From Heterotrichella gracilis (taxonomy: Eukaryota > Sar > Xanthophyceae > Tribonematales > Xanthonemataceae): DNA of 64,000 nt. Below, one piece after another: positions 1,507 through 42,829 of this stretch. The position numbers and the translations under genes were made by a program. How positions within the stretch are numbered: the first letter of the stretch is position 1; the number at the start of each line of letters is the position of its first letter. The notes beneath the pieces were generated by a model. The model ran no database searches and was not told the DNA's origin. It saw only the letters and a program-made list of their open reading frames with translations. Where the stretch lies: positions 124,001 to 188,000 of the forward strand of contig JAULBX010005553.1 of NCBI GenBank assembly GCA_032358255.1. The letters run 5' to 3'.

Positions 1507-4500
1507 ATGGTGAAGGTGGTGGTGGTTGGGGGCACCAACAGTGGGGTGGGCAAAACATCCATATCCATTGGCCTTATGGCTGCACTGAGGTGAGGTTTGT
1601 GCACGTTTTCCTGCGTTGGTGTTTCCTATGCGGTGGCAAACGCTAACACGCATTTTCCCTGCTCAGGAACCGTGGTCTGACCGTTCAAGCGTTCAAAGTT
1701 GGCCCAGGTAAGCTGAAGGTTGTTTTCTGGTTGTGTGAAACACTCACAGCGCCGCATAGCTTACTCACGGCGCATGGTGTGCAGACTTCCTGGACCCTCT
1801 GCACCACCAAGAGGCAACCGGGCGGCCCTCAGTGAACCTCGACGGCTGGATGCTCAGTAAGGAACAGAACCTGGCCACCTTTCAGCGGCACACAGCGGAC
1901 GCTGATGTCGCAGTCGTGGAGGGGGTGATGGGCCTGTTCGACGGGAGGGACGGGAAGACAGAGGACGGCAGCACTGCGCAGATGGCAAAGTGGCTGGGCG
2001 CACCCGTTCTCCTGGTGCTGGACTGCTGGTCTATAGCCCGGAGCGCAGCAGCGGTTGTCAAGGGCTACCAGGAGTTCGACCCAGACCTCAACCTGGCTGG
2101 CCTGGTGCTCAACAAAGTGGGTGGGGACTCGCACACCACCTGGTTGAAGGAGGCGTTGGAGTGCTCTGGTTCCAAGGCAGCGGTGCTAGGAGGCGTCCCA
2201 AAGGTGCGAACAGCTGGCAGGAAACGTGCACCCGTGCGTGCACCTCGAGGTGCATGGTAGTAGGCGTCCGTTTAGTCACACCCAAGGAACGCCAACACGA
2301 ACGTCGCTGTGCAGGTGGACGAGGTGACAATCAAGGAAAGGCACTTGGGGCTGCACTTGCCTGGCGACGCAGACTTGCCAAGTGGGTACATTCAAAAATT
2401 GGGGGATTTGTTGGAGAAGCATGTAGATCTGGATGCTCTGCTGGAGATGGCAGCAGAGGTGGCGCCTGCTGAGCGTACCAAGGAGCAGCTAGTGCAGGAG
2501 GTTGCGGGGCCGAGGGTCAGAATTGGGGTTGCGCACGACGCGGCCTTCTGCTTTTACTACAACGAGTAAGTGGGTTGGGCGGTGCATATGCATGCATTAG
2601 CAGCCAGCTCAAAACACCCCGGAAACTAGAACTTGGCGGTTGCCCCAACTGGCCAGTCCACTAAGTTGTGACCAGTTTGACTTGATCCCTGTTGCTGGGT
2701 CTCATGCTTGCACCACCCTCCCGGCGCACAAGGCATCCATCCGCATGGCCATGAAGGCGGTGCACAAACGCCACAGCAGCGACGGCCGACCTACCATCCT
2801 CATCCACGCCGCACGCACCGCCTGCCTACCTCTCTCACCCCACACCCCTCACACCCCGCCCCGCCCTGCAGCAACCTGGCCCTACTGACAGCAGCAGGCG
2901 CCGAGCTGGTGCCCTTCTCACCCCTCACCGACAACCTCCCCGTGAACCTAGCGGGGGTGTACCTGGGTGGGGGCTACCCGGAGCGCTTTGCCGCGCAGCT
3001 GGCAGCAAACCGGCCGCTGCTGGCGGCTGTGCGGGCGCTGGCTGAGGCAGGGGGGGTGGTGTATGCGGAGTGCGGGGGGCTTATGTACCTGAGCCAAAGC
3101 ATACAGCCGCTGGACGACGTGGCCTACCCAATGGGTGCGTTACCAACTGCAGCACAATGCACATCAAGCAGGGGGGTATTGGGCTAGCAAATAGTTCCAG
3201 TGGCTGCAGCCAGTTGCATTTAAGGGTTGTCTAGGTGGCATGCGTCCACCCTTAGTGGCCACGCACCATGCACGCTTGTTGATGTATGGGCTGCTATCAT
3301 CTTTCAGGTACACTGTGCGTTCCAGCGTGCAATTCGCACTGTTGAACCCGCAAACGGTTGGCCTGGCCACACGCGCCCCTGTACCATCCCTCATGACCCA
3401 TGACCTAATGCCGCTCCCGCGCCTGGTGCCAGTCAGGGCCACCTAGGCGTCTGCATGGGTTCGTTACTGCATTGTTCCATAGCGTCCTCCCCTGACACAA
3501 CCACCAACCCCGCCCTGCCCCTGCAGCCGCTGTCTTCCCCTTCCGCACCCTGATGACCGCAAAGTCCATGAAGATGGGGTACGTGGAGGTGACCACGCGA
3601 GATCCCTGCGCGCTGTTCCCCTCACACGCCGGCGCACGCGGCCACGTGTACCACTTCAGCGAGATCGTGCAGGAGCGGGTGGTGAGCGGCCTCACCTCGG
3701 GCAAGGCTGCGCAGCCTGCTGCGGGGGAGCACGAGTGGGTGGCCAGCTACTCTGCTGCCATCCAGGCGCCGGGGGCGGCGCCTGTGGAGGAGGGCTACTC
3801 GTGGCGGAATGTGCTGGCCAGCTACGTGCATCTGCATTGGGGCTCGGCGCCTGAATTTGCCGCGCAGCTGGTGGAGCGGTGCCGCAGGTGGGGGGGGAGG
3901 GGGGGGGGGGGGGCGGGGGCNNNNNNNNNNGCATTTCTGTGGGGGTGCGCCAGCCTGGGGCACCAGGGGGGGGGCCCGGGGGCAGCTCTGCAGCTGGGGT
4001 GCTTAGGGTGTTGAGTATGGGGGGAGGGGGGAAGGTTTTGGCGTGCGGGGTGGGGCAGCTGGGCCTCACCTGTGTATGCAATTGTTGGTGTGTGTTTTCG
4101 GCAGGCGGAGAGGGGTGATGGTGATGCATGGATCAATGGGGCAAGGGTTAAAGCAGAGAATGAACCCATGCGCCAATGCATCCGCCAGATAGCTGCACTC
4201 CGCCCCATGCTGTTTGCACACTCTGGTCCTGAAGGCCTGTCCTTGGCCCTGCAGTGTGGACGTTGAGACGGTGACATCAGCAGCAACAACTGCAGCCAAC
4301 CAGGAGCCCTACCCCCCCCTGGCCCCCCACCTACCCCCTGCACTGTCGCAGCGCCGCGGCCTGCACAGCGCGGCGTCCCTGCCCAACTTCCGCTCACACA
4401 GCAGGTGCGAGTGACCTCCATGGCAGCGCGTGTGGCCTGTTACTGGGACACAGCGCCCATGTGCTAATGCCACCATGCACCCAGCGCAATCCCAAGCCTG

Positions 4501-7500
4501 CATACCCAGGCAGCCACATCCACTACTTGTCATTATCCTCACTAATGGATGGCAGCTAAACATGCTCATACACAACAAGCACTGCCCAGGCAGGGGGGAG
4601 GTGAGAAGGCTGAGTCGCACACCTCCATCACCCCTCAGCCATGGGCATCGTGGCCGCCCCCCCCCCCTCCGCCTGATGGTGTCCCTCCCCTACTTCCACC
4701 CCCTAGTCCCTCATCACCCCTTGCACCCCCCACCAGGTCCAACTCCGCTCGCAGCCTGTCCTACGACGGCACCCACCCCGACACCCGTGGCCCCCTTGGG
4801 TGCACCTGTGACCCAGACCCTGGCGCCTACCCCGCCGCGCCCCCCTGCGAGGCCTGCACCTACAACGCGCACCTGCCCGCGCACCACCACCACCACCACC
4901 ACCAGCCGCAGCACCACCACCACCACCAGCCGCACCCCCTGCGCCTGCCCCCCTCCCGCTCCACCGCGTCGCTGTACACCAAGGGGTACCACGAGGTCAA
5001 GGGGGGCCAGGATCGCGACGCAGCTGCGCGCTCTGAGTCGCCCAACACCCCGCTGGGCAAGGTGTCGAGCTCGGAGAGCCTGCAGGTGGGTTTAGGGTTT
5101 AGGGTTTAGTGGGGGGGGGGACTCGTATGGACATGCAAAATCGATTCCTTGTTTGCAAAAGGAACAAGTGGCCCTTCCTGTGGTCATATTTGCGTGTGAA
5201 TGTTGATTCACCTTGGGTGAGTCAGTGCCCTTTCCTATGTCCATGGCATATTACCCACAATACAGGCCTTGAGGACGGCTATGGTGTTGCCGCCCTCCTG
5301 AACCCCCTGTCCCTTCCCTCCAGGTTGCGCCGCAGGGCTACTTCCCCTCCCCTCCCGGCTCGCCCAACGACCCCCCTGTGCACCTGGAGTCAGCCTTCAA
5401 CAGCCGACACGCATCCTACCAGAGCCACAACCCGCTGTACCGCCAGAGCCACCGCCCCACCTCGGCAGCCTCCCTTGACCTGATGTACCCCCCTGGCAAG
5501 GCGCTGCTGGGCGACGTGGGTTCCACCTACCCCATCAAGGCAACCTCCCTTGACTTGGGGGCGCTGCAGTCGCTGCATTCGTCGCCCAGCCAGGGCGATT
5601 TCGGGAGGGACAGGGCAGGTATGTGGCCTGTTTGCTTGATCATTCCACCCTCCACTACCCCTTCTTCAAGCCAGTAACAACCTCCCATGCACACGCTCTT
5701 GCATATGACTCTGCGCAATGGGGATTATTTCTTATTCTAATGTTAAGAATGCACTTTTTAAATACAAATTATATGCTAATGTGGGCAAATGAGGTACAGA
5801 AATAGATTGCGCCAGGCATACCCATGCAGGGCTCCATGTGTTGCATGGCTGCATGGGCTGTAGCGTACACCTACCCTGCTCATGCAAATGCTACGCACCC
5901 CCTCACACCCTTTCACACCCCTCCCCCTCCCCGCACACAGCCACCGCCTCTGGCCGGCTTGAGGACGCCACCTCCTTCCCATCCCGCCGCTCCCTGCAGC
6001 ACCTCTCCTCCTCATCCTCGGCCCACCTGGCGCCCTCAGAGAGAATCGTGTCCCTGCTGCCCTCCGGCACAGAGATCCTGTTTGCCCTAGGCTTGGGGGG
6101 TCGGCTGGTTGGGGTTTCCGACCTGTGCGATTACCCTCAGGAGGCTGTCAGCAAGCCCCGGGTGGTGCGGAGCTCGGTGGACACCTCAACCATGAGCTCA
6201 GCGGAAGTGGAGGTGCGCGAGGGGTAGGGTGGGTGGTAGGCGGGTGAGATGTTAGCCAAGAGGGGGGGTAGGGCGGAAGGGGAGCAAAGGCTGCAGGTAG
6301 TGGGTTGGCTGTAGGGCTTTGTGGCGGGGTTGGGGTGAGCGCATGAGGTGGGAGCGCATGGGGCGAAGGTGCGTTGCCGAAGGTGGTGCATACCAGGGGT
6401 ATGGTGCTTGGAGGGCTCGGCTGGCTGCACACCCAGCGGCCCCTGTAAGCAACCATGTGTCTCAGCTGCACGTCATCCATGCCACGTCAGGAGGACATTG
6501 CATGCACCAAAGTCATCTGGCCACGCCCCCTCATGGAAAGTAGGAAGGACAATGAAAGCGCTGCCGCCACATCCATGCCACGCCCCCTTACGCCTCACTA
6601 GCCAGCATGCTGCCATGCTGAGCTGCACCATGTCCATGCCACATCTTCTTATTCCCTGCTTCCCCGCTCCCCCACAGGCCGCCATGTCCCAGCTGCGCGC
6701 CCGCCGCCGCTCCCCCTTTGTGGTGGACGTAGACGCGCTGCGCCGCGACCAGCCCGGCCTGGTGCTGACGCAGGACATGTGCCGCACGTGCGACGCCGAT
6801 GCCGACAGCGTGGCGGAGGCGCTGCATGCCGCGGGGCTGGGGCAGGCCGCCACGCACACCATCGTGCTGCGGCCCAGGAGCGTGGCGGATGTGATGGACA
6901 ACATTCTGGAGGTGGGGATGGGTGCATGGTGATGGATAACAAGGGTGGTACGCCAGATAAGTTGGGTACCTGCATTCCGGCAGCATTCTGATGGCGCGGG
7001 GCCAAATGTGTGCCTTTCCATTTATCGTCAGCGATGCAGCCGCATAGATAGGGTTCATGCATAGTGGGGTCCAGATGGATAAAGCGCTGGAGGTGCGGTG
7101 CTGGGTGTAATGTCGGGCTGGTTTATTTTGCGAGGGGTGTTTACCTAAAATCACCCGTGTAGGGATAGCAGCAAATGAGATTGACTGCAAGGGATAATTC
7201 TCTTGATTGTGTTGACTGACCACCATGGCCACCCCATACAGGTTGGCCAGGCAGCAGGCGTGCACCCCGAGGCCCTCAGGCTGGTGGACAGGCTGCGCGC
7301 AAGGCTGCGGGCGGTGGCAGTAGCGGTGGCCGCCAGCGGGCGCCGCCCCCGCGTGCTCTCCCTTGAGGGCCTTTCTCCCCTTGTGCTGGGTGGCCAGTGG
7401 CTGCCTGAGGTGAAGGCGCTGGCGGGGGGGAGGGATGAGTGGCAGCAGCCTGGGGACGCACCCATGCGCATCACGTGGGAGCAGGTACGAAATAATATGC

Positions 7501-8502
7501 ATTCATGTCATTAATTTGTAAGTATGCTTTTGGGGTGGGGCAGGGGAGTTTGAGAGGCAAGCGATGTGCATTGGGTGGAGTTGGGGTGCATGGCGGTGGG
7601 TTTGAGGTGTAGGCGCTGTAAGTGGGGAGGGACGAATTGCAGCAGCTGGGTACCCACCCATATGAGTGGGAGCAGTTGGGAGGCGGGGCGTGTAGTTGGA
7701 TTGGGGGTGAGGGAGGTGCATTGGGGTGGGGCAATGGATGTGCAGGGGATGTTAATGTGGGTGTGTGAGGGGAAGTGGTGCATGGCATAGGAGGGGAATA
7801 GTGTGCTTCTGAAGAGGGCTCTGATGGGTGGGTGGGGTGACAGTGTAGCATAATCTATGACTAGAAGTATGGCGTGAGCAGCTGCGCCCACATCCAAATC
7901 CCCTGCGATGTGCTGCCCCCCTCACCCCCCTGCCCCCCTCCCCTCCTGCAGATTGTGTCGTACGCCCCTGAGGTGCTCATCCTGTCGCCCTGCTCGCGCA
8001 ACCCCCAGCAGACCCTGGCTGAGGTGTGCCACCTGGCGGGGCTGCAGGGCTGGTGGACGCTGCCCGCGGTCAAGTCTGGCCAGGTGTACATCGTGGACCA
8101 CGCGCTGTTCAGCAGGCCGGGGCCAAGGTGGGTGCTGGCACACGCAAAATGGTTACAAGGAGAATGACAACGGATTGCAACTGCAAGGGCATTCACAGAT
8201 GCTTTGTTTTCTTGTTTCTTATTTCCTGTAAATGTTTCCTGTGATGACGAGATATATTATGATTTCTTATTTCTCAAGGATTTTATCTATTTTAGAACTC
8301 ATTTTGTCATCAATTTATTCCATTAAGTTATGCCCCTTTCTTTTGCAGGCTGGTTGACGGCGTGGAGACCCTAGCGCGCATTCTGCACCCCGACCACGCG
8401 CCGCGCCGCTGCCCCGAGCGCGCAGTGCTCAAGCTGTCGCTGTCAGGCGGGCAGCGGTGCAGGCAGGCGCTGCTCACAAACTACTTTGTGCCCTTCACCT
8501 AG
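1507..8502 (+). CDS. cobB: Cobyrinate a,c-diamide synthase (CobB/CbiA) fused to BtuF-like corrinoid-binding domain
   Basis: Fourteen exons join in phase: 1507-1589, 1667-1707, 1785-2203, 2315-2565, 2872-3134, 3527-3887, 4255-4404, 4737-5085, 5324-5618, 5941-6212, 6678-6911, 7242-7484, 7952-8127, 8349-8502, giving 1096 aa. Residues 1-472 are a full CobB/CbiA enzyme, which amidates tetrapyrrole acetate side chains a and c using glutamine and ATP: P-loop [11 protein letters not shown] (8-18), KVGPDFLDP (38-46), [10 protein letters not shown] (86-95), class-I glutamine amidotransferase nucleophile AECGG (Cys332) and HLHW (His454/456). Residues 473-769 are a Ser/Pro-rich linker with a His tract. 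Residues 770-1096 resemble BtuF-type binding proteins: [20 protein letters not shown], then TQDMCRTC. There is no signal or transit peptide before the P-loop, so a cytosolic location is inferred. All bridging introns keep frame, so one polypeptide is likely, but two adjacent genes are not excluded without transcripts. Confidence 0.85.
3921..3930. other. Assembly gap (10 N) in a G-rich intron
   Basis: Ten unknown bases follow a run of G at about 3889-3919 inside intron 6 of the cobyrinate synthase fusion. The flanking exons join in phase across it, so no coding sequence need be missing. The length is probably a placeholder. Confidence 0.95.
4882..4929 (+). repeat. CAC-triplet tract coding a His-rich linker
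   Basis: Two runs of CAC (seven and five codons) separated by CAG-CCG-CAG code histidines 572-578 and 582-586 in the linker between the amidase and the BtuF-like domain. The tract may be a plain triplet expansion or a weak metal-binding segment; nothing here distinguishes the two. Confidence 0.85.
5091..5109 (+). repeat. Plant-type telomeric motif (TTTAGGG), interstitial
   Basis: About 2.7 units of TTTAGGG begin five bases after the splice donor at 5086 inside intron 8 of the cobyrinate synthase fusion. TTTAGGG is the telomere unit of land plants and many green algae, but this copy is internal and short. Confidence 0.9.
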
Positions 8503-37074: not shown

Positions 37075-38834
37075 ATGGTATGAAGCGCCCACTGGCACGG
37101 CAGACCTGCCCATATACGCATACTTGGGGCCATAACCGCTGCACTGGACGGGGTTCAGCCTGTGTATCAGCTTGAGAACCATTGCACGTATCATGTTGAC
37201 AGACAGTTTCCACAAGGGCTAAGGACAGGCTTGTCTTCAATGCAACATCCGCAGTATAGGGGCTCAGCAAGTTACAGCTTTATCTCTGAGGATCAATGCT
37301 GCACAACACCTAACCTGTCATCAGAATGGTCTACAAACACACCTACGAAATACACACAGCAGCAGCACCCCTCCCTGGGCCACCTTTTCATTTTGGTTGC
37401 AGGTATGCTTATGCATTGGGGTTCTTTGTGCCACAGGGTCGTGTTCGCACCAAGACCGTGAAGAAGGCTTCACGGGTCATCATCGAGAAGTACTACAACC
37501 GTCTCACCCTTGACTTTGACACAAACAAGAGGGTATGTGAAGAGGTGGCCATCATCCAGTCCAAGAGGCTGAGGAACAAGATTGCCGGCTTCACAACAGT
37601 AAGTTTTGGTGCAGTAAGCACTGCCTTCCACATACACACCACTGCTTGCACACATGGCAGCCTGATGTGAGCTTGAAGATATGGCTGATGCCCTGGCTGA
37701 CTCACGGTATTGTGTTGCAGCACTTGATGAAGCGCATCCAGCGGGGGCCAGTGCGCGGCATCTCCCTGAAGCTGCAGGTATGGATGCACTGTACATTAAA
37801 ATTTGGGGGTGAATGGAGGGTCACTTTGCTGCAAAAAATGCTTCCTGCGCAAAGTGGCATCTTCAAGGCACTGGAGACGTGCAGAGGCTGGGGAGGAGGT
37901 TGCAGGCTGGCTGGGTACAGTTGTTTCAGATGAGCTGTCAGCATGCTGCAGCTAGTATGTTGGGCTCAGCCATCACCAGCAAGGGTCCCACACCAGCCCG
38001 TTGAAGATGGCTGAGTCTGTTGGGACGCACAGCGCTGCATGTATTGGCTAGGCAGGAAACCCACTGCAACCTGTTGGGCGCGGCTCTTGAAAGGTGTGCG
38101 TTGGTGCTTGCAGGAGGAGGAGCGCGAGAGGCGCATGGACTTTGTGCCCGACGAGTCTGCCGTCAACACCGACCTGATCGAGGTGCGTTGCATGCCATAG
38201 CATAGATTTGCCATCTGCACCAACATCGCCATTATGGATCCAATAACAGTTGCTCAAGTGCAATTGCGATGGTGTGGGGCGCTCTCACTGCTGGCACTGC
38301 TGGTGGTGTGGGGCACTGTGGGGCGCACTCACCGTTGGCTTGGCGCGCTCACTGTTGGCACTGTTGGCGGCGTGGCTACGTTTCTTGCTGGGAGCGTGCG
38401 CGTTGCGGCTGCAGGCGTATGACAGGAGTCGGTGCTGACGTTGCATGTTTGTCACTCGCAGGTTGACCGTGAGACCATGGATATGCTCAAGACCATGAAC
38501 ATGGCCAGCCTTCCCGGCGTGTCACTGGTGCAGGTATGTCTATATACACAGTCTTTGTACACACTTCTACCTACATGTGTATCCTGCCACGCCCCACACT
38601 GTGGCACACATGCACAGTGGGTGTAACCCAAAGCGGGTGCCATGCATCTCCAGGCCTTGCGCAGTTTGCATTTACAATTGGAACACACAGTTGCTCAGTA
38701 TATATCCCACTCATTCACTCATAATAGCATGTTGTATATGCCTGGGGGTTCAGTGCCCTGACCCCCTGTTGTTGTGTGTTGCGCAGCCCCAGACACAACA
38801 GGTCAGCTTCCAGAAGCCCGCCTACCGCAAGTAG
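37075..38834 (+). CDS. RPS17: 40S ribosomal protein eS17
   Basis: Six exons join in phase: 37075-37077, 37437-37598, 37721-37777, 38114-38182, 38462-38533, 38787-38834, giving 136 aa, the normal length (about 135). The protein is a structural part of the small cytosolic ribosomal subunit. It starts [20 protein letters not shown] after the Met and is alignable to eS17 over its whole length, including the [10 protein letters not shown] and [11 protein letters not shown] segments. The first coding exon is only the ATG, cut directly by a GTATGA donor, so the 359-base first intron separates the start codon from the rest. Such early introns are common in ribosomal protein genes and often aid expression. 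No second copy is seen in the window. Confidence 0.96.
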
Positions 38835-40827: not shown

Positions 40828-42829
40828 ATGGCACGCACAGTACCCACCGCAGCAGCAGCCACGCTGCTGTGTGTACTTTGCCTGCTGCACTCAGCAGCAC
40901 CAGTAGCATGCGCCAGCAAGCCTCCCCGCTCCCCTCCCCCTCCCCCTCCTGTACCCCCAGCACCCCGAGCACCAGCAGACTACCTGGCACCTCTGGGCTG
41001 CTTCAGCCTTAAACTGGTGAGTCGCCTTGTGATAGCGACTGGGGAGGAAGTGAACCAACAGGATGCATTATAATACACTATCTGCACACGCGCATGCTGG
41101 GTTGCATGTTGCACCACGCCACAATGGAACCCACAGCCTTTGCCACCAAGCCCGCAGGCACCCACCCAACCCATGTACCACACCCACCCACTGAACCCCC
41201 ACCGCACCCACCCACCCCTGCAGCACCAGGACCACATGAGGCTCATCAGCTCCCGCACACCCCTCACCGGATGCCAGAACGGGTGCCGCAACCTGAAGCA
41301 GCCGCTGGTGGCATACAGCGGGGCCAGATGCTGGTGCGCGGCACAGCTGCCGGGACAGGCGGCGCGGCGGCCGCAGTCGGAGTGCGAAGGGGGCAAGAAC
41401 CCCGGCAGCTTTGCGCTCTACTACCGCTTCACAAGTGAGTGGTGGTCTTGGTGGTGGCGGCTGCGGTGGTGGTGGTTGCAAGCGGTTACAGTGGTGGTAG
41501 TGGTGGTGGTGGTGGTGAAGTGGTGGATGAATGTGCATTGTATTCCCAGGCATTTATGCATGCCCTGGTGATTTCCCTGACAGCACTGGCCGAGGGGCAA
41601 TGGGCAGCGGATGTGGTGGCAAGGGAACACAGCATTACCCTCCACTCCGCATCTGAATGCCCCCCTGCCAATCCCCTGCAGAGCGTAACTGGGACTGCCA
41701 GCTCAGCGATGTGCCTGTGAAGAGCCTGACAGCAGACTACGGGAGGGAGAACGTGGCCTACCCAGACAGCCACACCATGCGCATCGACATGAAGGGATAT
41801 ACTGGGGCCAGGGTGCGCGCAGCGGGCCCAGCGGTGCAGTACGGGATGGTGCAGATGTCCATCAAGGCGTCAAACACCATCGGACCCGTGGCGGCAGTCT
41901 ATGTGAGTGTGGTGGTGTGGAGCGGGGGCTGGTTGGCTAGGGTTGTCGAGGGTGCTGGGTGCAGGGTGCTGCCCGCATGGGGCATGGGGCATTGGTGGTG
42001 CTCTTTTGCAAGTTGCACAAATTTTCATTGGTGTGCGGAGCATCTGAGAAAAGCCTACCTGCCTGCACATGTCCGCCATCATTGCGCGAACAGCTTTGCC
42101 GAGCATCCACACCACCCGCATCGCTCGCGCATCACCCGTCTCATGCCCCCCCCCTCCACCTCTCCGCAGATGTCCTCCGATTTTGACCAAAATCGCAACC
42201 AGGGCTGCGATGCCAAGGGCTGCTACCAGTCCGGTCCTTGGGACGAGGTGGACATGGAGTTCCTTTCAGGATTCCCAGTGGATGGTCCCACCTTTTGGAC
42301 CAACACCTACCGGGGGGGCTGGCCGCAGCACAGGCTGGCGGATGGGAGCATGGTGCGCGATGCCAACACCATGGCTGGGCGCGTGAACACCAGCGTCATC
42401 ACCCGCGCTGTGAAGGGCTGGTGGGGCGCCAAGGCCACGCGCAAGGAGTACAACACCTGGCAGCAGTTCAACACCTACTCGTTCGACTGGCAGCCGCAGA
42501 GCGTGCGCTGGTACTACCAGGGGGCGCTGGTGGACAGCCGTGGCTACCCAGTGCCAATCCCGCAGGATCCCTCGCTGCTGTTTGCCTCCTTCTGGGCGTC
42601 ACCAAAGGGCGATTTCGGCGGCCTCATGGACCCCAAGCACCCCACCTATTCTGTCTTCCTGGCGGACATCCGGCGCGTGGTGTGCCACCCTGGCAAGGCC
42701 TCGCCATCACCAAAGGTAACCCCGAAGCGCTCGCCGCCACCCAAAAAGTCGCCGGCCAAAAAGCCGCCGCCGCGGAAATCCTCCCCGTCCCCCAAGAAGC
42801 ACACCCCACCTCCCAAGGCCATGGGCTGA
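40828..42829 (+). CDS. Secreted WSC-domain glycoside hydrolase family 16 protein
   Basis: Four exons join in phase: 40828-41016, 41224-41434, 41682-41902, 42170-42829, giving 426 aa. The ATG has a strong ACCACCATGG context. A signal peptide (TLLCVLCLLHSAAPVACA) is followed by a PPPPPP linker. A WSC-like cysteine domain covers about 55-130 (LGCFSL...GCQNGCRN...CWC...CEGG), a carbohydrate-binding fold. The GH16 catalytic core follows with the ExDxE signature in WDEVDMEF (Glu233 nucleophile, Asp235, Glu237 acid/base). The C terminus (about 380-426) is Lys/Ser/Pro-rich, like cell-wall anchoring hydroxyproline-rich tails. GH16 enzymes cut or rejoin beta-1,3/1,4-glucans or xyloglucan. The substrate cannot be told from sequence, but cell wall remodelling is likely. 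Intron 2 has a GGT-repeat stretch. Confidence 0.88.
41491..41517 (+). repeat. GGT triplet microsatellite in intron
   Basis: A GTGGTGGTAGTGGTGGTGG run in intron 2 of the WSC-GH16 gene, close to the donor. Simple-sequence repeat. Confidence 0.9.

Follow-up and report, generated by a model that had tools for sequence, protein, structure and literature searches.

The locus described here raises the question of why an alga should carry a cobyrinate a,c-diamide synthase (CobB/CbiA) joined to a relative of the B12-binding protein BtuF. The gene lies on the plus strand at positions 1507-8502 of a 64,000-nucleotide stretch of Heterotrichella gracilis DNA (contig JAULBX010005553.1, positions 124,001-188,000), which as a whole is called the window below. 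The rebuilt spliced open reading frame consists of 14 exons joined in phase and has 3291 nucleotides, encoding 1096 residues before a TAG stop codon, and its 13 introns, of 77-467 nucleotides, all have GT-AG borders; this structure coincides exactly, from exon 1 (1507-1589) through exon 14 (8349-8502), with the model proposed in an initial annotation of this DNA. The predicted product is made up of a CobB part (residues 1-472), a linker of 295 residues (473-767, exons 7-10) and a binding domain (approximately residues 768-1064) with four conserved cysteines (four-Cys domain), and the gene appears from its sequence to encode a single CobB/four-Cys fusion protein. This fusion appears to be new, its component families being already known. 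We propose, with a probability of about 0.5, that it would act as a corrinoid salvage or repair amidotransferase equipped with its own corrinoid-linked domain.

By family, the first half is a complete cobyrinate a,c-diamide synthase as judged from its sequence. It scored 475.8 bits (E 1.1e-142) against the CobB equivalog model NF002204, whose cut-off is 254, and 430.5 bits against TIGR00379 (cut-off 261.4); Pfam matches were PF07685 (1.5e-26) and PF01656 (2.7e-19), and PF01497 (1.2e-15) in the binding half. Exon 1 carries the start codon and the intact P-loop (GKT; residues 1-27) and is followed by exon 2 (1667-1707), exon 3 (1785-2203) with D45, E87 and D94, exon 4 (2315-2565), exon 5 (2872-3134), which encodes part of the glutaminase domain with the nucleophile C332 at 3071-3073, and exon 6 (3527-3887), which contains H454 and H456 and in which the similarity to CobB stops at about residue 472. 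When aligned with 48 bacterial and archaeal CobBs, D42, D45, E87, D94, Y263, H395 and H456 were identical in all 48 and C332 and H454 in 47, so that a synthetase domain and a glutaminase domain with its Cys and His are both present. The completeness of the enzyme and the positions of C332, H454, H456, D45, E87 and D94 had been claimed in the initial annotation, and both claims held with this conservation in 47-48 of the 48 sequences; D45, E87 and D94 were placed there at residues that are reported to be important in Salmonella CbiA. A TAG codon stands in frame at 1480-1482 and no in-frame ATG lies between it and 1507, which suggests that translation begins at the P-loop, with no transit peptide seen, barring an upstream exon. 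A 16-residue insertion (residues 415-430, exon 6) within the glutaminase domain is absent from all or nearly all of the 48 prokaryotic relatives. A sequence search of the PDB with the CobB half gave no match at E 0.001.

The second half had been annotated as a BtuF-like corrinoid-binding domain at residues 770-1096; the presence of a binding domain stood, the limits did not (the domain proper covers about residues 768-1064), and a BtuF-like periplasmic carrier was not supported. The domain starts at the end of the linker in exon 10 (5941-6212), which holds the first cysteine, C800 (6126-6128), and continues through exon 11 (6678-6911) with C863 (6780-6782) and C866 (6789-6791), exon 12 (7242-7484), exon 13 (7952-8127) with the fourth cysteine, C1001 (7991-7993), and exon 14, which encodes the domain end, a C-terminal tail and the stop codon. 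The cysteines lie in loops of the form (S/T)HEC(D), QxxCxxC and PCG, and all four are found in each of 86 aligned sequences, the alga included, 80 of which were fetched with patterns that already contained three of the four. They are also all present in the five plasmid-derived relatives outside that pattern-fetched set and in all 11 Chloroflexota relatives that were retrieved without using one (of these, L149 is identical to the pattern-fetched L036). The set is missing from the seven substrate-binding proteins near bacterial cobB genes, one of which has a Cys at the first place and another a Cys pair near the fourth. The genome scan confirmed at least 585 of 591 pattern matches; the best 80 were retained, which come from many bacterial phyla and from archaea with 34-44% identity, and 85 loci were fetched overall. 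Among viral contigs scanned with the binding domain there were three pattern matches and no relatives.

The four-Cys relatives are apparently cytosolic, to judge from their 5' ends. A start codon lies no more than 21 nucleotides ahead of the domain match in 77 of the 85 (at 3 nucleotides in 45; six have none and two have it farther away), and in 51 of the 85 an in-frame stop within 60 nucleotides upstream of the domain makes the stretch between them too short for a signal peptide, which in the other 34 is not excluded. Inspection of the algal protein revealed neither a signal peptide nor a lipoprotein anchor, the domain being internal and the model beginning at the CobB P-loop. In a set of relatives termed A4, all 69 matched substrate-binding-protein models and 58 matched the BtuF equivalog NF002894, the single member shown falling under the cut-off of that model, against which the algal half scored 26.8 bits (cut-off 234). 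The predicted structure of one relative, L006 (predicted local distance difference test score, pLDDT, 95.8), places the cysteines in loops after strands, and its top PDB matches were iron-, B12- and heme-binding proteins, Vibrio BtuF being the third. BtuF proper was rejected on the failed cut-off, the lack of a signal peptide and the four-Cys set. As far as sequence comparison goes, the second half is a relative of BtuF from a widespread prokaryotic family with four conserved cysteines, and not BtuF itself. We know of no tested function for this family.

A link between the four-Cys family and corrinoids came from its bacterial loci, which were fetched as stretches reaching at most 8 kb to each side of the gene and scanned on either strand for cobalamin riboswitches (RF00174, gathering score). 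Seventeen of the 74 loci scanned (all 85 except L057-L065, L084 and L085) contained one, with L046 close to the threshold. For an estimate of chance, 21 of the 25 genomes checked for CobB were used, namely those whose locus was scanned: seven of the 21 loci (0.31 Mb) held nine riboswitches, compared with 0.12 expected from whole-genome counts of at least 37 in 95.3 Mb, a number that may be low because the best candidates, at most 74 per genome, were scored. Some members of the family, at least, are therefore linked to corrinoids in their bacterial hosts. Clustering of the 85 loci gave as recurrent neighbours a TonB receptor (nine loci), a membrane protein of about 180 residues (11) and a PP-loop protein (11), of which one representative each was identified as TonB receptor, DUF6580 and Diphthami_syn_2, a Dph6-like ligase, respectively. 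In L010, L011, L035, L037, L047, L050, L051 and L078, a riboswitch, a DUF6580-type protein, a Dph6-like PP-loop protein and the four-Cys gene occur together. Since Dph6-type enzymes are amide ligases, their proximity to a corrinoid-linked protein is a hint that amidation may take place in the bacteria as well. On an Alicyclobacillus plasmid (L004, 1272-5933) a cobalamin riboswitch precedes the class I ribonucleotide reductase genes nrdA and nrdB, and the four-Cys gene is downstream of these.

The reading of the fusion as a salvage or repair enzyme comes from bacteria that hold CobB apart from the corrin-ring genes. CobB was present in 12 of the 25 four-Cys genomes tested, and among eight CobB genomes searched for CbiC and CbiD, neither gave a match in G376, G007 and G024; the G376 and G007 assemblies may be partial, and G024 is a 5.18-Mb chromosome. 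In G376, CobB stands head-to-head with a four-Cys gene, after which come a partial riboswitch match (38.3 bits; gathering score 31.5), a BtuFCD-type importer made up of a binding protein with a lipobox recognised by eye, a FecCD permease and an ATPase, and a CobQ-type protein. The G024 run comprises a CobQ-type protein, CobB, a riboswitch, a TonB receptor, a binding protein, a FecCD permease and an ATPase. In G007, the importer end (binding protein, permease recognised by eye, ATPase and a TonB receptor whose best model is the B12 receptor, below its cut-off) leads into CobB, followed by CobA, BluB, PduO, CobU, CobT, CobS and CbiB; two sites within this cluster have riboswitches. In both G031 and G069, CobB comes after the gene of a binding protein and the fetched stretch includes a riboswitch; a permease and an ATPase gene were recognised by eye in G069. 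In the cyanobacteria of the next branch (G204 and G235), the genes around CobB are unrelated. A published survey reports cbiA/cobB in 46% of precursor salvagers and in 2.6% of predicted non-producers (PMC6461909). From the genomes with an orphan cobB and these survey figures, CobB is retained by some corrinoid scavengers, and for this reason the fusion is read as a salvage or repair amidotransferase. The corrinoid salvage idea of the initial annotation thus gained bacterial precedents, with CobB lying beside importers and riboswitches in genomes that lack a CbiC or CbiD match.

The fusion might then work as follows. The four-Cys domain would hold a corrinoid already inside the cell, and the CobB half would amidate its a- and c-acetate side chains using glutamine and ATP. 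The substrate would be an incompletely amidated or hydrolysed corrinoid at the cobyrinate level, which would be completed or reused, that is, salvaged or repaired rather than synthesized from scratch. The low-complexity linker of 295 residues would tether the amidotransferase to the binding-protein domain, which is of class III and apparently cytosolic. In this scheme, we infer the substrate, the ligand, the partner bound by the cysteines, the role of the tether and the cell compartment.

Several observations weigh against this salvage or repair reading. The general view is that eukaryotes import cobalamin in its finished form and leave the corrin side chains unaltered, so that a substrate at the cobyrinate level is not obvious. 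Within the binding half, D798, L799 and G949 (the last in exon 12) stand where 79, 83 and 85 of the 86 aligned sequences, respectively, have H, E and W; the His, Glu and Trp otherwise conserved in the four-Cys family are therefore lacking in the alga, and the ligand of its domain may differ. No riboswitch was found in 57 of the 74 scanned four-Cys loci, a tblastn search gave no CobB match in any of the 85 loci, and 13 of the 25 four-Cys genomes have no CobB. Both CbiC and CbiD were present in five of the eight CobB genomes tested, which makes a biosynthetic role probable for the majority of the CobBs in that sample, and both genes are also found in G031 and G069, whose CobBs have the highest identity (55%) to the algal one. 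No single donor accounts for the two halves, and among nine Chloroflexota genomes that have both they are adjacent in G376 only. Finally, the splice that unites the halves spans an assembly gap of 10 N (3921-3930) in intron 6, the sole gap of the window, and the join between CobB and the second half depends on it.

This gap bears on a first alternative, that two neighbouring genes are present, a CobB gene whose end lies within exon 6 or shortly behind it, and a gene for the linker and four-Cys domain starting in or after the gap. The gap indeed sits in the intron separating the halves, 42 of the 48 prokaryotic CobBs terminate within 12 residues of algal residue 472, so that the end of exon 6 is close to the expected end of a free-standing CobB, and the linker has one Met, in exon 9, which is a possible independent start. 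However, exon 6 has a donor site and an in-phase junction with exon 7, and the open frame of exon 7 (from 4193) contains no Met. The linker, rich in Ser, Pro, Ala, Leu and His, is encoded by exons 7 (4255-4404; beginning of the Ser/Pro/His-rich part), 8 (4737-5085) and 9 (5324-5618) and by the start of exon 10, and exons 7-10 were kept out of the training of a codon model built on exons 1-6 and 11-14. In the joined frame these untrained exons scored +0.29, +0.34, +0.35 and +0.26, respectively, while their other two forward frames were all below zero and the top reverse-frame score was +0.13 among exons 7-9 and +0.17 among exons 7-10. Being positive in the joined frame only among the forward frames, the linker looks coding, and exons 7-9, before and around the single Met, are included in this. 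A separate second gene would hence need an unseen start exon, and we regard two genes as unlikely. Just past the donor site of intron 8, at window positions 5091-5109, there are two full TTTAGGG units and a partial third, TTTAGGG being the plant-type telomere motif.

In a second alternative, which is compatible with the salvage reading, the four-Cys half would be a metal or iron-sulphur redox module instead of carrying a corrinoid, and the fusion would couple reduction with amidation, for example cobalt reduction ahead of adenosylation or decyanation. The invariance of the four cysteines in the 86 aligned sequences even where other pocket residues differ, their presence in the pattern-free Chloroflexota relatives, their absence as a set from the binding proteins near cobB and their predicted placement in the L006 model all point in this direction. 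We consider such a module unlikely.

It is less probable still, and quite unlikely, that the amidotransferase works on another tetrapyrrole or an unrelated acid, for instance a sirohydrochlorin-type compound, with the four-Cys half partnering that ligand. CfbB, the Ni-sirohydrochlorin a,c-diamide synthase, is closely related to the algal CobB half, eukaryotes make siroheme and so have sirohydrochlorin, and the pocket residues of the binding half are altered. Nevertheless, the CfbB model gave 413.5 bits, short of its cut-off of 560, for a protein that passed the CobB equivalog cut-off; CfbB identity was rejected on this score, and the sirohydrochlorin/F430 alternative raised by the initial annotation was not supported by it. 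Several of the nearest bacterial CobBs, unlike the cyanobacterial copies in L160 and L163, lie in corrinoid gene clusters, in which several genes were recognised by eye, and the partner four-Cys family is partly linked to riboswitches. A relict or moonlighting gene with little or no corrinoid function after horizontal transfer, which the long end branches (0.73 for CobB and 1.41 for the binding domain) and the changed pocket residues would suit, is very unlikely given that the catalytic residues and the four cysteines are all intact, that 1096 codons are open and that the untrained exons 7-10 score as coding.

The origin of the two halves was followed in trees. A quick tree of 49 CobBs paired the algal CobB with that of the Chloroflexota genome G376 (Shimodaira-Hasegawa-like approximate likelihood ratio test, SH-aLRT, 94, not starred), which is the closest by tree path and is 53% identical, compared with 55% for G031 and G069. 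The algal binding domain grouped with Dadabacteria, Nitrospirota and others (93/96, not starred), and five of the 11 other loci of that group, all of them scanned, have a riboswitch (L006, L008, L010, L035 and L051); the four-Cys gene of G376, which adjoins the nearest CobB, falls outside it. In a sample of 81 Chloroflexota genomes, CobB was detected in 29 (E up to 1e-80) and a binding-domain match in 26 (E up to 1e-20). The CobB half thus lies with Chloroflexota and the binding half elsewhere, and one donor is not demonstrated: a single bacterial donor of both halves was sought and not found. One transfer of the gene pair is possible. A ready-made bacterial fusion was also rejected, with no CobB in the 85 four-Cys loci and no binding-domain match in the CobB frames searched; the long open frames of seven of the searched CobB loci were read through. 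The genome G394 of the Chloroflexota sample contains a frame of 1279 residues (L161, 1742-5578) that by eye resembles a CbiX-CobB fusion.

The gene is a eukaryotic nuclear one, as indicated by its 13 GT-AG introns and by its neighbours in the window. An open frame at 37314-37667 encodes the N-terminal part of the cytosolic ribosomal protein eS17, a eukaryotic nuclear marker, and another at 31235-32176 matches MYCBPAP, its only PDB match being FAP147 at low similarity. FAP147 is a Chlamydomonas axonemal protein, and the match suggests that the organism is probably flagellated. Bacterial contamination was rejected, as had been argued before, on the introns, the coding linker and the eS17 and FAP147-like frames. 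A glycosyl hydrolase family 16 frame lies at 41657-42826, and other frames of the window gave P-type ATPase, leucine-rich repeat (LRR) and WSC matches.

Compared with known systems, the algal CobB half agrees with CobB/CbiA (NF002204, TIGR00379) over the whole length, in domains and in catalytic residues, with no more than 55% identity to the bacterial members found, and differs in the introns, the 415-430 insertion and the C-terminal fusion to a binding domain. The free-standing prokaryotic four-Cys proteins (PF01497), annotated as 'cobalamin-binding protein' or 'ABC transporter substrate-binding protein' (ABC, ATP-binding cassette), belong to the same fold family and share the four cysteines and 34-44% identity, whereas the algal domain is fused and has D, L and G replacing the conserved H, E and W. 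The bacterial orphan cobB clusters (G007, G024 and G376) likewise have CobB without a CbiC or CbiD match and an importer alongside, although as separate genes, with riboswitches in the cluster and CobQ-type or nucleotide-loop genes. BtuF has the class III binding-protein fold in common with the algal half, as modelled on a relative, and a weak sequence match to it; it is periplasmic (PMC10828217), and the set of four cysteines is missing from the binding proteins encoded close to bacterial cobB. A BtuF-like fold has also been suggested for CBA1, an algal cobalamin acquisition protein, which differs by a hydrophobic or signal sequence and membrane association and for which the available text mentions no amidotransferase (PMC10828217). 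Similarity to CobB in a eukaryote is shared by a transcript of the haptophyte Chrysochromulina brevifilum, for which the part of that report available mentions neither a fusion nor a partner domain (PMC4057078). The word CobB does not occur in PMC11439496, PMC8085122, PMC11302038 and PMC10828217, and in PMC7455551 it is the name of an author. No description of a fusion of CobB with a binding domain was found in the open-access literature, subscription journals and supplements being outside the scope.

The union of CobB with a corrinoid-linked domain in a eukaryote makes the idea that algae salvage or repair corrinoids open to experimental test. In the strongest form of the proposal, which is tentative and on balance doubtful, the fusion may be a dedicated eukaryotic corrinoid-finishing enzyme tethered to a four-Cys cytosolic domain, the latter acting as corrinoid holder or as iron-sulphur reductase. 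Such an enzyme would represent, to our knowledge, the first eukaryotic activity that alters the side chains of the corrin ring. The finding also points to a widespread four-Cys bacterial family that is found in part with riboswitches, TonB receptors, DUF6580 proteins and a Dph6-like ligase. If the proposal is true, some algae scavenge precursors besides finished B12, which would broaden what algae can obtain from bacteria.

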